This document shows positions 56,974 through 61,556 of a stretch of DNA of 64,000 nucleotides, one piece after another (the first letter of the stretch is position 1; each line of letters opens with the position of its first letter). The DNA comes from Oenococcus kitaharae DSM 17330. GTDB taxonomy: Bacteria > Bacillota > Bacilli > Lactobacillales > Lactobacillaceae. The stretch is taken from NCBI RefSeq assembly GCF_000241055.1, contig NZ_CM001398.1, forward strand, positions 593,190-657,189, in the 5' to 3' direction. A model generated the notes under the pieces. It ran no database searches, was not told the DNA's origin, and saw nothing but the letters and a program-made list of their open reading frames with translations. Position numbers and translations under genes: made by a program.

Positions 56974-56978
56974 CTTAA

Positions 56979-57010
56979 AAAACATCTGCTAAATGGCAGG
57001 TGTTTTTTTT
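56979..57010 (+). terminator. Terminator after the acetyltransferase
   Basis: AACATCTGC, short loop, GCAGGTGTT followed by about seven T. Confidence 0.85.
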
Positions 57011-57065
57011 ATTTCTTCTGAAAACTGCGTATAAAGAAGCATAGGAATTCGAAGGAGGAAATGAA

Positions 57066-57281
57066 ATGATCACAATGATGGAAACTTATAGGAACGAGCT
57101 GGCTTTGAAATATCAGCGGTTAATCGAGAACCGCTGGTTTTGGGTGTTCTTTGGTTTGCTGATATTGGTAAGTGTAATTGCATATGCCTTTTACTGTACT
57201 GCCAGAGGTTACAATTTCTCGGGCAATATTAAGCTGCACTGGCCACATTTTTGGGAAATGGGAGTCGGTTGTAAACGATGA
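57066..57281 (+). CDS. Small single-helix membrane peptide with two cysteines
   Basis: A 71-residue protein: charged N-terminus (1-22), one membrane helix (about 24-43) and a C-terminal tail of about 27 residues holding Cys44 at the helix exit and Cys69 near the end, with many aromatics (NFSGNIKLHWPHFWEMGVGC). Strong GAAGGAGG precedes it; ATG 57066 is used because ATG 57061 gives only two codons before a stop. First gene of a co-directional cassette with an ABC transporter, an HExxH protein and a CPWC thioredoxin-like protein. It could be the peptide substrate of that cassette. No family recognised. Confidence 0.6.
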   Translation: MITMMETYRNELALKYQRLIENRWFWVFFGLLILVSVIAYAFYCTARGYNFSGNIKLHWPHFWEMGVGCKR

Positions 57282-57305
57282 TACGGATTATTTAGGGAAA
57301 GTCGC

Positions 57306-58022
57306 ATGCTTAGGATTGATTGTTTAACCAAGAGTTATCAAGGAAGATCTGTTATTGACGATTTGACGATGGCTTTCGACAAAAAAGGCATGACTGTGAT
57401 TGTAGGTGCTAACGGCAGCGGCAAGACAACCTTTTTTAATGCAATTTGCAGTTTGATTGATATTGATAGCGGCGAAATCACAATTGATGATATGCCCTCA
57501 GGGTCGGAAATTTTCAAACAGCAACTGTTTTATTTACCGTCAGATTTTTATTTACCAGAATTTATGACTGCGTTAGAGTATGGCCATTTTGTTCTAAGCC
57601 GTTATCCAAAAGGGAACATGACACAGTTTAAGGTCTTGCTGCAAATTTTTGATTTGTCTGGACAGAAGGATCACCTCATTGGTGGTTTTTCCTTTGGCAT
57701 GAAGAAAAAATTACAAATTGCGGCTGCTGCAGCATCGGGTGCACAGTATATTTTGGCTGATGAAATTTTCAGTGGTCTGGATTTTCAGAGCGTTTTACTG
57801 CTGCAGGAGGTGTTCGATCATTTATCTAAAAAACAGCAAATCGTATTAGTCTCTCACGAAAGCAATTGCTTATTGCGTTTTCCAGACAATATTTGGATCA
57901 TGCAACAGGGGAGACTGACACAGTTCACGGGTACAATCACGGAATTGACCCAGACTATCAAACAGGAAAAAGAAGTCCATGACAAACTTGCCCAAATTGA
58001 AGAACATTTCAACGTTAACTAA
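57306..58022 (+). CDS. ABC transporter ATP-binding protein
   Basis: A 238-residue ATPase: Walker A GANGSGKTTFF, Q-loop region LFYLPSDFYLPEFMTA, a degenerate signature GGFSFGMKKKLQIAAAA, Walker B YILADEIFSGLD and switch His in VLVSHES. It pairs with the permease that starts 44 bases inside its 3' end. The group resembles exporters of bacteriocins and other small peptides. No clear strong ribosome site, consistent with coupling to the upstream peptide gene. Confidence 0.88.
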   Translation: MLRIDCLTKSYQGRSVIDDLTMAFDKKGMTVIVGANGSGKTTFFNAICSLIDIDSGEITIDDMPSGSEIFKQQLFYLPSDFYLPEFMTALEYGHFVLSRYPKGNMTQFKVLLQIFDLSGQKDHLIGGFSFGMKKKLQIAAAAASGAQYILADEIFSGLDFQSVLLLQEVFDHLSKKQQIVLVSHESNCLLRFPDNIWIMQQGRLTQFTGTITELTQTIKQEKEVHDKLAQIEEHFNVN

Positions 58023-59355
58023 ATTTTTATACCAAGATGCTTTTCATGGTCTGTTTAAAAGGCCTTTTTTCCAGAAAAAACGTAACCGCTATTTGCTATT
58101 GGCTGGATTGATTTTGTTGTATTTTGTATATTTTTATGTCAATATGGTTGCTTTTGTTCGGTTATCTGAAGGAGCAGCAAACGCTCAACCGGATGCTTTT
58201 GCTTTAGCTGCAAGAACAACCCTAAGCAGCTCTTACAATTTATTTTTAATTATCTCGTGTTTAGTTTTTATTTTGGTCAATGCAAATTTTAATCTTAGCC
58301 GCAATTCTTTATTCTTTATTAAGACACTGCCTTTCAAACGAAAAGAGATTCTGTCAAGTCTTAGTATTTTCAGATTCAGTCTTGGAATGGCGATATTTGA
58401 ATTATTTTTAATTATTGCAGCACCAATGTTCAAACTGTTGAGATTATCTTTATTGGAATCATTCTTAGTTCTAGTGACTTTACATCTATTATTTTTTTCT
58501 ATTTTTCAACTACTGGAATTGATATATGCGGCGGTTTCTCGATTAAAGAGTAAATGGACTAAATATTTTCCTTTATTTTTAGATGGCATTCTCATGTTTC
58601 TGATTGGTATTTATTATTTTCACACACGTTTGTCAGTGGACAATTATTGGGCCGCGCAGCGGATATCTTTATTAATGATGACGATTTATCTGTTGACTGT
58701 GCTTTTGATTATCACAACAATGACATTATTGATTCGTTGGCGCTTGCCCTCTGAAATTGAAGGCAGAATTAAATCGTCCTTTATCCATATATTACCCAAA
58801 TCGCTATTTTTAAAATTGATTGGCATGCCATGGATTGCCGTTTTGCGTTTTAAGATCACGAGTTATTACGCTTTGATTTCTGTCGGATTAGTCGCCATTT
58901 CGGTTTATTTCTCCGATTGGAACGAAATGTTGCAGAACATGCTTTTTATTCTCCCGTTAATCGGCGTTGTGTGGATATTTTATGCGGATGCTTTGTTAAA
59001 TTTCCGACCGCTATTCAATCTATATCGAATAAGTATTTATGCTGAATTATGCGCGATTTTATTAGCTGTGGCATTTATTCTGCTGCCGTCATTACTAGTA
59101 GGCCTGATGGTTCAGGTAACTGCGGATCCATTTTTCTTTGGATTAGGAATCTCACTTGCTTCTCTAATCGCTGGTTTTCTGTTCCCAAAATCACAAGGAA
59201 ATATGAACGAAAGCTTATCTGCCTTCTTGAGCATCATCATGATGATGCTGTTGGCTTCTCTGATAAGTATTCCTTCGGCTTTATACATCGTAGACGGTCT
59301 GCTAGTGCTGTTGGTTGGATACATTTTAAATAAAGAAAAGGAAGTTAAATCATGA
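57979..59355 (+). CDS. ABC transporter permease
   Basis: A 458-residue membrane protein with about 11 helices (first helix YLLLAGLILLYFVYFYVNMVAFV at residues 35-57). It has a basic N-terminus and repeated short polar loops; partner of the ATPase at 57306. ATG 57979 overlaps the ATPase gene by 44 bases, and the following gene overlaps by four. Sequence does not show the substrate. Together with its neighbours it forms the export core of the cassette. Confidence 0.8.
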   Translation: MTNLPKLKNISTLTKFLYQDAFHGLFKRPFFQKKRNRYLLLAGLILLYFVYFYVNMVAFVRLSEGAANAQPDAFALAARTTLSSSYNLFLIISCLVFILVNANFNLSRNSLFFIKTLPFKRKEILSSLSIFRFSLGMAIFELFLIIAAPMFKLLRLSLLESFLVLVTLHLLFFSIFQLLELIYAAVSRLKSKWTKYFPLFLDGILMFLIGIYYFHTRLSVDNYWAAQRISLLMMTIYLLTVLLIITTMTLLIRWRLPSEIEGRIKSSFIHILPKSLFLKLIGMPWIAVLRFKITSYYALISVGLVAISVYFSDWNEMLQNMLFILPLIGVVWIFYADALLNFRPLFNLYRISIYAELCAILLAVAFILLPSLLVGLMVQVTADPFFFGLGISLASLIAGFLFPKSQGNMNESLSAFLSIIMMMLLASLISIPSALYIVDGLLVLLVGYILNKEKEVKS

Positions 59356-59615
59356 AAAAATATATAAAACAACTCAGTATTGCTTCAAGCTGTTGGATGA
59401 TTATTTTTGCTATCGATCTTGTCATTGAGCTTTTTCAAATCAATGAAAGCGGGGTTGTGACAACTTTGACCGGTCTCCGAATTGAAACACACATAACGCC
59501 AGATGAATTGAACTCGTTGTTCTCACTCACTTGGCAGGTTGTGGGCTTATATGCATTGTTCCTTGTAATTTGGTTTGCGGTTTACCACATGTTTCAAATT
59601 AAGAAAAAAGCATGA
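59352..59615 (+). CDS. Small two-helix membrane protein
   Basis: An 87-residue protein with two membrane helices (about 10-30 and 60-82) separated by an outside loop (NESGVVTTLTGLRIETHITPDELNS). ATGA overlaps at both ends with neighbours, so it is a regular member of the cassette. No family recognised; could be an immunity protein or an exporter accessory. Confidence 0.7.
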   Translation: MKKYIKQLSIASSCWMIIFAIDLVIELFQINESGVVTTLTGLRIETHITPDELNSLFSLTWQVVGLYALFLVIWFAVYHMFQIKKKA

Positions 59616-59983
59616 TTTGGTCAATACTAACCCTATTAGTCATCTATGGTTTGGCTTGTTTTCTTCTGGTGTCCTTGCATGAAAGTATTCATTTTATAAC
59701 GGCCAGGTTATTTCATTTGCGGCCAGTCTTCAAAATAAATCTATTTTTATTGCCAGTGATCAGCTACAAGAATCCAGGGCGGGATGCACAAAATTTGGTG
59801 GTCGCTCTATCAGCACCGGTTGGTTTGATTATTTTGGGGATGCTGATTAATTCAGAAATACCGTATTTTGGACTTGCCAAAATCCTGTGCCTGACTAATG
59901 TTGCTAATTTATTGCCCATTACAACAGATGGCGAAGTGATTTTTCTGTCTGTTTATAACTTGATCAAGGAGAATAAAACATAA
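59612..59983 (+). CDS. M50-like membrane metalloprotease homologue (HExxH)
   Basis: A 123-residue protein with about three helices. It has HESIH at residues 23-27 (HExxH zinc motif at a membrane surface) and NLLPITTDGEVIF in the C-terminal part, equivalent to the third-ligand NxxPxxxxDG motif of M50 site-2 proteases. Size is small, closer to compact DUF3267-like M50 relatives. Both motifs intact suggest real protease activity in the bilayer, fit for releasing a helix-anchored peptide. Overlaps both neighbours. Confidence 0.75.
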   Translation: MIWSILTLLVIYGLACFLLVSLHESIHFITARLFHLRPVFKINLFLLPVISYKNPGRDAQNLVVALSAPVGLIILGMLINSEIPYFGLAKILCLTNVANLLPITTDGEVIFLSVYNLIKENKT

Positions 59984-60501
59984 TGAAACGAATGAGTCTT
60001 ATTATATTGTCACTATGTTTGTTAGGAGCTGGTTTTTATGCAACTTATGTTCTAGCAGTCAGACAAACTCAGACAAAAACACCAGTTTATCAAGATAAAA
60101 GCCCACGCTTTATTCACGATGCACCTGCAAAAACATTGGCGGCCATGACCAGAGAGGCTAAACCAGGCATCTATTACTTTGGTTATCCAAATTGTCCTTG
60201 GTGTGTCGAACTGCTGCCGGTATTCGATCGTGAACTAAAACGTCAGCATAAGCAGGCACAAGTGGTGAATACGCGTGCAGATAACTATCGAAGTGTCGAT
60301 AACATTGTGTTAGAAAAGTTTTTCATCAAGCATACTTTTGAAAAACGCTTGTCCGTACCCTTTATCGTCGTGATTCAAAAGGATGGCAAAGTGAAAACAC
60401 ACATTGGTACAGTCAAGGGCCATAACGCACCACTTGCATCCATGACGAGAGAACAACAATCACAACTAGAAAAACAGCTAAGGGAATTGATAAAGGAGTA
60501 A
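59983..60501 (+). CDS. Membrane-anchored thioredoxin-like protein (bacteriocin accessory type)
   Basis: A 172-residue protein with an N-terminal membrane helix (residues 5-25) and an extracellular thioredoxin fold. CPWC sits at residues 71-74 in YFGYPNCPWCVELLPVF, and the cis-Pro is in SVPFIVVIQKDG. This matches the PedC/bacteriocin transport accessory family, which helps form disulfides in exported peptides. It overlaps the M50-like gene (TAATG). The two-Cys peptide at 57066 is a natural candidate substrate; this is inference. Confidence 0.85.
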   Translation: MKRMSLIILSLCLLGAGFYATYVLAVRQTQTKTPVYQDKSPRFIHDAPAKTLAAMTREAKPGIYYFGYPNCPWCVELLPVFDRELKRQHKQAQVVNTRADNYRSVDNIVLEKFFIKHTFEKRLSVPFIVVIQKDGKVKTHIGTVKGHNAPLASMTREQQSQLEKQLRELIKE

Positions 60502-60509
60502 CCTACTTT

Positions 60510-61556
60510 ATGCCTTATAACTTGATATATGAGCTCAGGCAAGTAACTCACCGCATTCAGAAAAGTAGTTACTTTAGCTGTGTTAAACTGACTGCTTCTC
60601 TATTTTTGACACTTTTGAGTTTGACATTGTTGTCAAACACCACCATATCAAACAGGATTATCTTATGGATTGAATCTCTTGATAAGCCGCTAGAGTCATT
60701 ATTGGCGAGCCTTTCCTTGCAAATATATTTTGAGCGATACCTGGCCATTTTACTGATATTTTTCTTTTTGATTAGTTTATTTTACTTGATACTTTATTTT
60801 TTTCGGAAACCAGTAAATCAGCAGCATCTTTGTTCCAGATTTCAAGCAAAAAAAATGTACACATTGGATCGAACAGGTCGCTTTGATAGCACAAGCCTTC
60901 AGCCGTTTTCATCGGCAATGGCAAGGAAGACTTTTGTCTGCGCGTTGAGCGCTGTTTTTCTGGTGATAATCGTGTTGCTGTATCTGCATCAGCCTATTGT
61001 ATTTTCTGAGTTTGCAATCGTTGGTTTTCTAGGAACTATCCTCATGCGTCTTGCCATATTTGGGCAATATCAAAAGCAATCTGATTTATCTAATCAAATT
61101 TCTAACCATCGCTTATTGGACAAATGGTCCGTTCATGCTTTCTCAAAGCACACTACTCATTTAGACATCGTGCGGTTATTGTGCCTTTCGCTAGTGGTCT
61201 TATGTCTGTTGGCCGGTTCTCGCATTTCTTTTTGGTTTTTTGTGAAAGAGTTGGTGCTGATTGCTATGCTGGCAACGACGGATATCTCTATTGCCCAGAT
61301 GTTCATGAATTTGTGTGTTTCGGATAGTGGTAATAGGAACACGATGGCTATAGTTGGGCTTTTACTAACCGGTCTGACAATTATGTTAGTCACGATGAGT
61401 ATGATGGTGCTAAGTCTGTTGATTGAGTTTACCAATCTGACCGCCATTTATGTTTTGGCAGGCCAATTATTGGGATTAGGTTCGGTGCTGTTCCTCACTC
61501 GATGTATTGCGCGTCAATTTGAAAGTAATTGGTTCAAATTGACAACACCAAAATAG
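60510..61556 (+). CDS. Polytopic membrane protein of unknown function
   Basis: A 348-residue protein with about eight membrane helices (first SLFLTLLSLTLLSN, then LAILLIFFFLISLFYLILYFF, and the rest in the second half), with a polar central segment near residues 110-145. AAGGAG precedes ATG 60510, 8 bases after the thioredoxin-like gene. No family recognised. Last gene of the cassette; might be a second permease or an immunity protein. Confidence 0.7.
   Translation: MPYNLIYELRQVTHRIQKSSYFSCVKLTASLFLTLLSLTLLSNTTISNRIILWIESLDKPLESLLASLSLQIYFERYLAILLIFFFLISLFYLILYFFRKPVNQQHLCSRFQAKKMYTLDRTGRFDSTSLQPFSSAMARKTFVCALSAVFLVIIVLLYLHQPIVFSEFAIVGFLGTILMRLAIFGQYQKQSDLSNQISNHRLLDKWSVHAFSKHTTHLDIVRLLCLSLVVLCLLAGSRISFWFFVKELVLIAMLATTDISIAQMFMNLCVSDSGNRNTMAIVGLLLTGLTIMLVTMSMMVLSLLIEFTNLTAIYVLAGQLLGLGSVLFLTRCIARQFESNWFKLTTPK

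Follow-up and report, generated by a model that had tools for sequence, protein, structure and literature searches.

Oenococcus kitaharae DSM 17330 (Bacillota; Lactobacillaceae) has a 1.84 Mb genome in which a compact cassette of seven genes encodes, in order, a small one-helix peptide with two cysteines, the ATPase and permease of an ABC transporter, a two-helix protein, an M50-like protease, a thioredoxin-like protein and a polytopic protein (Table 1). The cassette lies in the 64,000-nucleotide stretch of contig NZ_CM001398.1 (assembly GCF_000241055.1, positions 593,190 to 657,189, forward strand) that was analysed here and is called the window below. We consider it highly probable (about 0.9) that this locus is a TMcin biosynthetic gene cluster that makes a small membrane-piercing antibacterial peptide. 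Our own evidence for this reading lies in which genes are present and how they are ordered, in the kinship of the core proteins, in the conservation of catalytic residues and cysteines, and in a predicted helix and hairpin. Reading of the open frames in the window places all seven genes, the 71-residue peptide with Cys44 and Cys69, and the HESIH and CPWC motifs exactly where a first-pass annotation of the same DNA had put them. Two of its details change: the distal protease motif reads P-x3-DG (PITTDG) instead of PxxxxDG, and the spacing, compact as described, comprises overlaps of 1-44 rather than 4-44 bases and gaps of 8-24 rather than 8-25 bases, with a one-base overlap between the M50-like and thioredoxin-like genes. 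The hairpin upstream of the cassette carries weight through its position only, with five such sites found against a mean of 4.2 in shuffles; a scan for promoters and terminators gave site counts no different from shuffled sequence. The nearest named relative is O. kitaharae CRBO2176 (genome G005, locus L006; G and L numbers denote genomes and loci throughout).

Table 1. Features of the Oenococcus cassette (window coordinates)
Feature	Position	Strand	Evidence or remark
Terminator-like hairpin, 14-pair stem and T-run, also an inverted repeat	56977..57008	+	3' of an acetyltransferase gene, which it splits from the cassette
AAGGAGG ribosome-binding site of the peptide gene	57052..57058	+	Read in the sequence; L006 upstream sequence the same
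tmcA homologue, 71-residue TMcin precursor: leader, one transmembrane helix, predicted C-terminal hairpin, Cys44 and Cys69	57066..57281	+	23 aligned homologues, cysteine spacing, profile, model
Likely mature TMcin, residues 20-71	57123..57278	+	Cys44 equated with Cys25 of TMcin-G1905 (PMC13252029, in part), equal 25-residue spacing
tmcB homologue, ABC transporter ATPase, 238 residues	57306..58022	+	PF00005, 2.9e-19
tmcC homologue, ABC transporter permease, 458 residues	57979..59355	+	Profile match to plasmid group, E=2.2e-7
tmcE homologue, two-helix escort protein, 87 residues, two hydrophobic segments	59352..59615	+	Position, size, weak profile match (E=1.7e-4)
tmcP homologue, mini site-2 protease (DUF3267-like), 123 residues, HESIH and NLLPITTDG	59612..59983	+	PF11667, invariant motifs, profile
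Thioredoxin-like membrane-anchored oxidoreductase, CPWC, 172 residues, in the place of TmcD	59983..60501	+	Weak profile matches
Accessory polytopic protein, 348 residues	60510..61556	+	Relative only in L006 among 31 loci

TMcins are a bacteriocin class described in 2025-26 from Staphylococcus aureus G1905, where the cluster lies on plasmid pCT545 (PMC12328743 and PMC13252029, both cited for the portions available). TMcin-G1905 is secreted with its helix retained, requires a Cys25-Cys50 disulfide for killing and forms beta-barrel pores (PMC13252029, PMC12328743). Mutagenesis established the roles of the protease, escort, transporter and disulfide in this strain: TmcP, a DUF3267 protein of the site-2 protease (S2P) clan, cuts a 45-residue leader, the two-helix protein TmcE escorts, TmcBC exports, and the DsbA-like TmcD forms the disulfide (PMC13252029). 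The first-pass annotation had proposed a disulfide, an intramembrane protease and dedicated ABC export for the Oenococcus cassette, which are the same kinds of steps. The class has been reported in Bacillota and Actinomycetota in three gene arrangements (PMC12328743); neither the family nor its breadth is therefore new.

Profile comparison of four core families (peptide, permease, TmcE and TmcP; all E-values are single-pair values) connects the cassette to this class. The peptide and permease families match a group from S. epidermidis plasmid pHOB2, Paraclostridium and Peribacillus (E=2.8e-5 at a probability of 74% and E=2.2e-7 at 94%, respectively), and TmcP matches pHOB2 and Paraclostridium only, at E=1.1e-9. 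The 9.3 kb plasmid pHOB2 (NZ_CP018844.1, L101) carries tmcB-C-E-P-A, with a tmcA of 297 bp, and a small regulator operon, which fits the published staphylococcal layout. Across the start of that record runs a frame of some 222 residues that lacks annotation; it has a CPDC motif and an N-terminal hydrophobic stretch, and is possibly the TmcD of that plasmid. TMcin features found in the window are a single-helix precursor homologous to TmcA with two conserved cysteines and a predicted hairpin, an ABC pair, and an S2P protease. The two-helix escort is recognised by position, size and hydrophobic segments. In place of the DsbA-like CPHC TmcD of the staphylococcal branch stands the thioredoxin-like CPWC protein; TmcD does not define the class because tmcD is missing outside staphylococci, as the available part of PMC13252029 has it. 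Two points weigh against class membership: the TmcE match to pHOB2 and Paraclostridium, the only two compared for this family, is weak (E=1.7e-4, probability 49%), and the relatedness runs through pHOB2, a plasmid assigned to the class by its layout, pCT545 itself having stayed outside the comparison. Profile matches, shared layout and motifs nonetheless lead to TMcin membership, and we take it as established, on sequence grounds, that the first six genes belong to this class. The view of the cassette as one for membrane-peptide maturation and export is supported for these six genes and not for the seventh.

Both cysteines occur in all 25 full-length peptides (23 of 23 aligned, and those of L048 and L100; the peptide gene of L061 is in pieces), and L12, W26, Y40, A41, Y43, C44, T45, F51 and C69 are invariant in the 23 aligned peptides. 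The cysteines are 25 residues apart in 14 of 15 representatives and 22 apart in one, with the last cysteine 1-3 residues before the C-terminus. Among the 15 representatives, pairs of peptides are on average 33% identical in the N-terminal part, 42% in the helix and 58% in the tail; the ATPase averages 46% and the other cassette proteins 30-38%. The tail is, on average, the best conserved part of the cassette. For example, L100, a phylum-level relative, and L066, a class-level relative, share 94% identity in the tail and 33% in the permease. Comparison of the window with L006 runs counter to this average (78% in the tail; 90-100% in the leader part, ATPase and small proteins). The most hydrophobic 19-residue stretch of the window peptide begins at residue 24. 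An AlphaFold2 model from a two-row alignment has helices at residues 3-21 and 23-46 and strands at 50-58 and 62-70 (mean predicted local distance difference test score (pLDDT) 71.8, only 58-63 in the strands; predicted template modelling score 0.45), and thus predicts a two-stranded hairpin after the helix. A search of the peptide profile against solved structures gave a single match (E=0.75), which was dropped. By analogy with TMcin-G1905, cleavage would fall near residues 19/20 and remove a leader of about 19 residues.

Matches of the ABC ATPase are led by generic families, and the 458-residue permease matched no Pfam or NCBIfam family at E-values up to 1. The TmcP homologue matches PF11667 at 5.7e-5 (23.9 bits, under the 27.1 cut-off), and its residues H23, E24, H27, N96, P102, D106 and G107 are invariant in 18 of 18 homologues. 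The earlier view that this is not a lanthipeptide, sactipeptide or double-glycine bacteriocin locus stands: the alignment of 23 peptides has no conserved double glycine, no C39 peptidase occurs among the Pfam matches listed for eight window proteins (the best 25 of 27 for the ATPase), and no radical SAM protein occurs among the Pfam matches of these eight, other cassettes having been read but not scanned. A gene resembling a ribonucleotide reductase activase lies further downstream of the cassette in L017.

The locus recurs in other genomes. Queries with the M50-like protein found the cassette in three more Oenococcus genomes (G005, which is CRBO2176, G001 and G006) among 60 relatives. Permease profiles matched 4 genomes out of 395 in the order, 7 out of 299 in the class and 2 out of 398 in the phylum, the O. 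kitaharae genome being included each time, as well as 16 of 284 genomes of one genus (among them G168, one of the four from the order) and 1 of 18 of one family, a genome already known. In total, 28 further genomes have the locus or remnants of it, giving 29 loci with that of the window. The peptide gene comes first in 26 of these; the three exceptions are L008 and L062, which are at contig ends, and L058, with ATPase and permease only. This L058 pair (L058:5165-7532) belongs to the cassette family and is without peptide, protease and escort genes; it could be a self-protection remnant. The order peptide-ATPase-permease-two-helix protein-M50-like protease, with or without the thioredoxin-like gene, recurs across other genera, and the five-gene core order is kept in Oenococcus, in lactic acid bacteria beyond it and in genomes at a greater distance. 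A separate search with the peptide profile found a full-length peptide in exactly the four of 395 order genomes that hold the permease; because gene order recurs in other genera and the peptide and permease co-occur in this way, the cassette is more than a chance assembly. At E<=0.01 the peptide profile matched 28 of these 395 genomes, of which 24 covered part of the profile (mostly the helix) at E-values of 1.7e-4 to 0.0087 and were taken as chance matches. The first-pass annotation had asked whether the seven-gene order recurs with a variable first peptide; the core order does recur, with a first peptide whose tail is on average the best conserved part and, except in L006, without the seventh gene. 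Neither of two contrary outcomes raised in the first-pass annotation occurred: the first gene has homologues of 68-81 residues (start codons as chosen in the analysis), not long proteins truncated in the window, and the cassette genes accompany the same peptide family rather than an unrelated known substrate.

Several loci have decayed. The protease of L007 is cut to 91 residues with loss of the DG motif; the permease gene is in pieces in L050 (together with the ATPase gene), L057, L060 (where escort and thioredoxin-like genes were not found), L061 (together with the peptide gene) and L062 (at a contig end). Such decay would fit a trait that cells can do without, a weapon for example. Searches of plasmids gave no match for three permeases or for the L100 peptide, and one weak match for the protease; three plasmid records were examined among 25 listed of the 1330 that matched the ATPase query, and they supplied the plasmid relatives compared above. 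A phage search with one permease and a search of a defence-system library had no match, and one scan of viral contigs gave none that was confirmed.

The seventh gene stands apart. Its 348-residue product matches no family searched, and tblastn against 31 loci found a relative only in L006, split there into frames of 267 and 85 residues; the gene is outside the conserved core and accessory. A role in self-protection is a guess. The comparison with L006 also reveals a mosaic. Flanking sequences are 88-100% identical per 100-base bin, mostly 96-100%. Between window positions 57066-59355 and L006:3081-5373, tmcA agrees in all 78 bases of its first 26 codons, the helix and tail diverge from codon 27, and the permease is largely divergent too (25-49 identical per 50 residues). 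This sharp mosaic looks like a swap of the mature-peptide part along with the transporter.

How TMcin producers outside staphylococci form their disulfide is left open in the available portion of the 2026 preprint that reports tmcD as missing there (PMC13252029), and the thioredoxin-like gene is a candidate answer. It follows the protease gene in 19 of 29 loci; its active site is CPWC in 17 of the 19 genes and CLWC in L100. The window protein matches NF052402 at 1.1e-4 and PedC at 0.0095, both far under cut-off, and its relatives in L051 and L017 match Thioredoxin_9 at 8.7e-5 and 0.0032. A profile of 13 aligned homologues has a thioredoxin (E=0.0071) as its sole match at E<=0.01 among solved structures. 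The expectation that this gene pairs with absence of a DsbB/BdbC oxidase was set down before testing. PF02600 (DsbB/BdbC) was found in none of the 19 genomes with the gene (0 of 18 first, then G911) and in all six whose complete five-gene core is without it. Three genomes with decayed or partial loci lacking the gene (G006, G439 and G593) have no PF02600. In G068, a divergent thioredoxin-like gene with a CSFC motif (L019:8937-9389) sits a short way upstream of tmcA in the opposite orientation, and the genome has a partial PF02600 match above cut-off. We lean towards the view that, in hosts without a DsbB-type oxidase, TMcin clusters bring their own membrane-anchored thioredoxin-like disulfide maker, mostly with CPWC, which replaces TmcD and is re-oxidised without DsbB; in the Oenococcus cluster, the thioredoxin-like protein would then do the job of TmcD.

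Several observations weigh against this view. The window CPWC protein has no thioredoxin match in Pfam, its profile assignment is weak, and its structural model (mean pLDDT 40.8) is too poor for use. The decayed locus L057 keeps the gene with the first active-site cysteine lost. Lineage confounds the PF02600 association: the 19 genomes belong to four genera, with 14 in one, and the six belong to two. Only cassette-bearing genomes were compared, a Lactococcus control also is without PF02600, and lactic acid bacteria in general may be without it. Moreover, G001, which is counted in the tally, is 65% complete, and a further test, with PF13462 (DsbA/BdbD type), drew no clean line between the groups: this family occurs in 1 of 19 genomes with the gene, 2 of 6 without it, and G068. 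The thioredoxin-like variant is new to the TMcin literature as far as our searches go, figures and supplements being outside them; the word thioredoxin is absent from the main text of PMC12328743 as available. The O. kitaharae genome paper (PMC3250461, cited in part) names OKIT_0665 as a putative bacteriocin transport accessory protein; this may be the CPWC gene.

A TMcin pathway in Oenococcus would run as follows. TmcA would insert in the membrane with its tail outside, where the thioredoxin-like protein would close the Cys44-Cys69 disulfide. With the escort TmcE presenting the precursor, the mini-S2P protease TmcP would remove the N-terminal leader, and TmcBC would extract the mature peptide, helix included, from the membrane. 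Secreted peptides would enter neighbouring Gram-positive cells and assemble beta-barrel pores. The Oenococcus cluster is presumably active.

Other explanations have to be weighed against this pathway. The first-pass annotation proposed that the tail, with its two cysteines oxidised, is released from the helix by the M50-like protease and leaves the cell as a soluble disulfide peptide. The cassette does contain genes for such a protease and for a thioredoxin-like protein, and the tail is on average the conserved part, but we regard tail release as very unlikely: in TMcin-G1905, the only system studied, the helix remains part of the mature peptide and what TmcP removes is the N-terminal leader, according to the accessible parts of PMC13252029 and PMC12328743. 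In addition, the divergence of helix and tail together from codon 27 between the window and L006 is as expected of one product.

The tail could also be a pheromone that is sensed by Rgg/ComR-type regulators beside some clusters. Four of five upstream regulators tested against Pfam match such families (Rgg_C in L007 and L018, ComR_TPR in L051 and RNPP_C in L053; L017 has only a weak helix-turn-helix match). The frames listed for the 2.5 kb upstream of the window cassette, however, include none recognised as a regulator of this type. Rgg/ComR-type regulators sense short linear peptides and pheromones usually diversify, whereas this tail is conserved between distant lineages, which makes a signalling role very improbable. 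Least probable of all is that the ABC transporter serves detoxification or a stress response and that its small neighbours have nothing to do with it. Such a transporter would account for the generic ATPase matches and for genome G593, which has ATPase and permease only, but not for a five-gene core order maintained over such phylogenetic distances or for a permease that falls in no generic family.

The TMcin assignment has practical implications. According to their discoverers, TMcins stayed hidden from genome mining, with a peptide and cluster unlike any others (PMC12328743, in the portion available); sequence profiles from this analysis pull further TMcin clusters from raw genomes and add Oenococcus to the class. 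The thioredoxin-like gene gives a directly testable candidate for the disulfide step outside staphylococci. If this reading is true, it answers how non-staphylococcal producers close the disulfide that is essential for killing, a question left open in the accessible text of PMC13252029. Food-fermentation relatives as producers would be a convenient source of such peptides.

Comparison with known systems places the cassette more precisely. Pediocin-type bacteriocins with PedC resemble it in having a thioredoxin-like disulfide helper (the weak PedC match at E=0.0095), but they have a double-glycine leader and a C39 transporter, neither of which is seen in the Oenococcus cassette. PptAB-Eep likewise joins an ABC exporter to an M50 protease; it handles short linear pheromones from scattered genes and has no two-cysteine membrane peptide or escort. 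The epipeptide cluster epeXEPAB of Bacillus subtilis shares a small precursor, an M50 protease, EpeP, and an ABC pair. It contains a radical SAM epimerase, and no radical SAM gene was found among the Pfam matches of the window cassette; we know of no disulfide system in epipeptide clusters. A TMcin-like cluster also occurs in Clostridia, on Paraclostridium bifermentans plasmid NZ_CP094936.1 (L103:3660-8631). Its M50-like protein (HEWIH, DG motif) is fused to an N-terminal PqqD domain (PF05402, 9.5e-13) that may bind the leader for the protease, and the cluster has a further DUF3267 protein and a DsbA-type gene (Thioredoxin_4, 1.5e-18), which places a DsbA type within a cluster outside staphylococci. 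The pHOB2 cluster is like that of Oenococcus in its four core families, which match by profile, and differs in the order B-C-E-P-A. From G1905, the Oenococcus cluster differs in its location on a chromosomal contig rather than a plasmid, in having the precursor gene first rather than last, in a precursor of 71 residues as opposed to a 297-bp gene, in a leader of probably about 19 rather than 45 residues, and in an in-operon thioredoxin-like CPWC gene rather than a separate DsbA-like CPHC tmcD. The two share a one-helix precursor, two cysteines 25 residues apart, an ABC pair, a two-helix escort and a DUF3267-type S2P protease.

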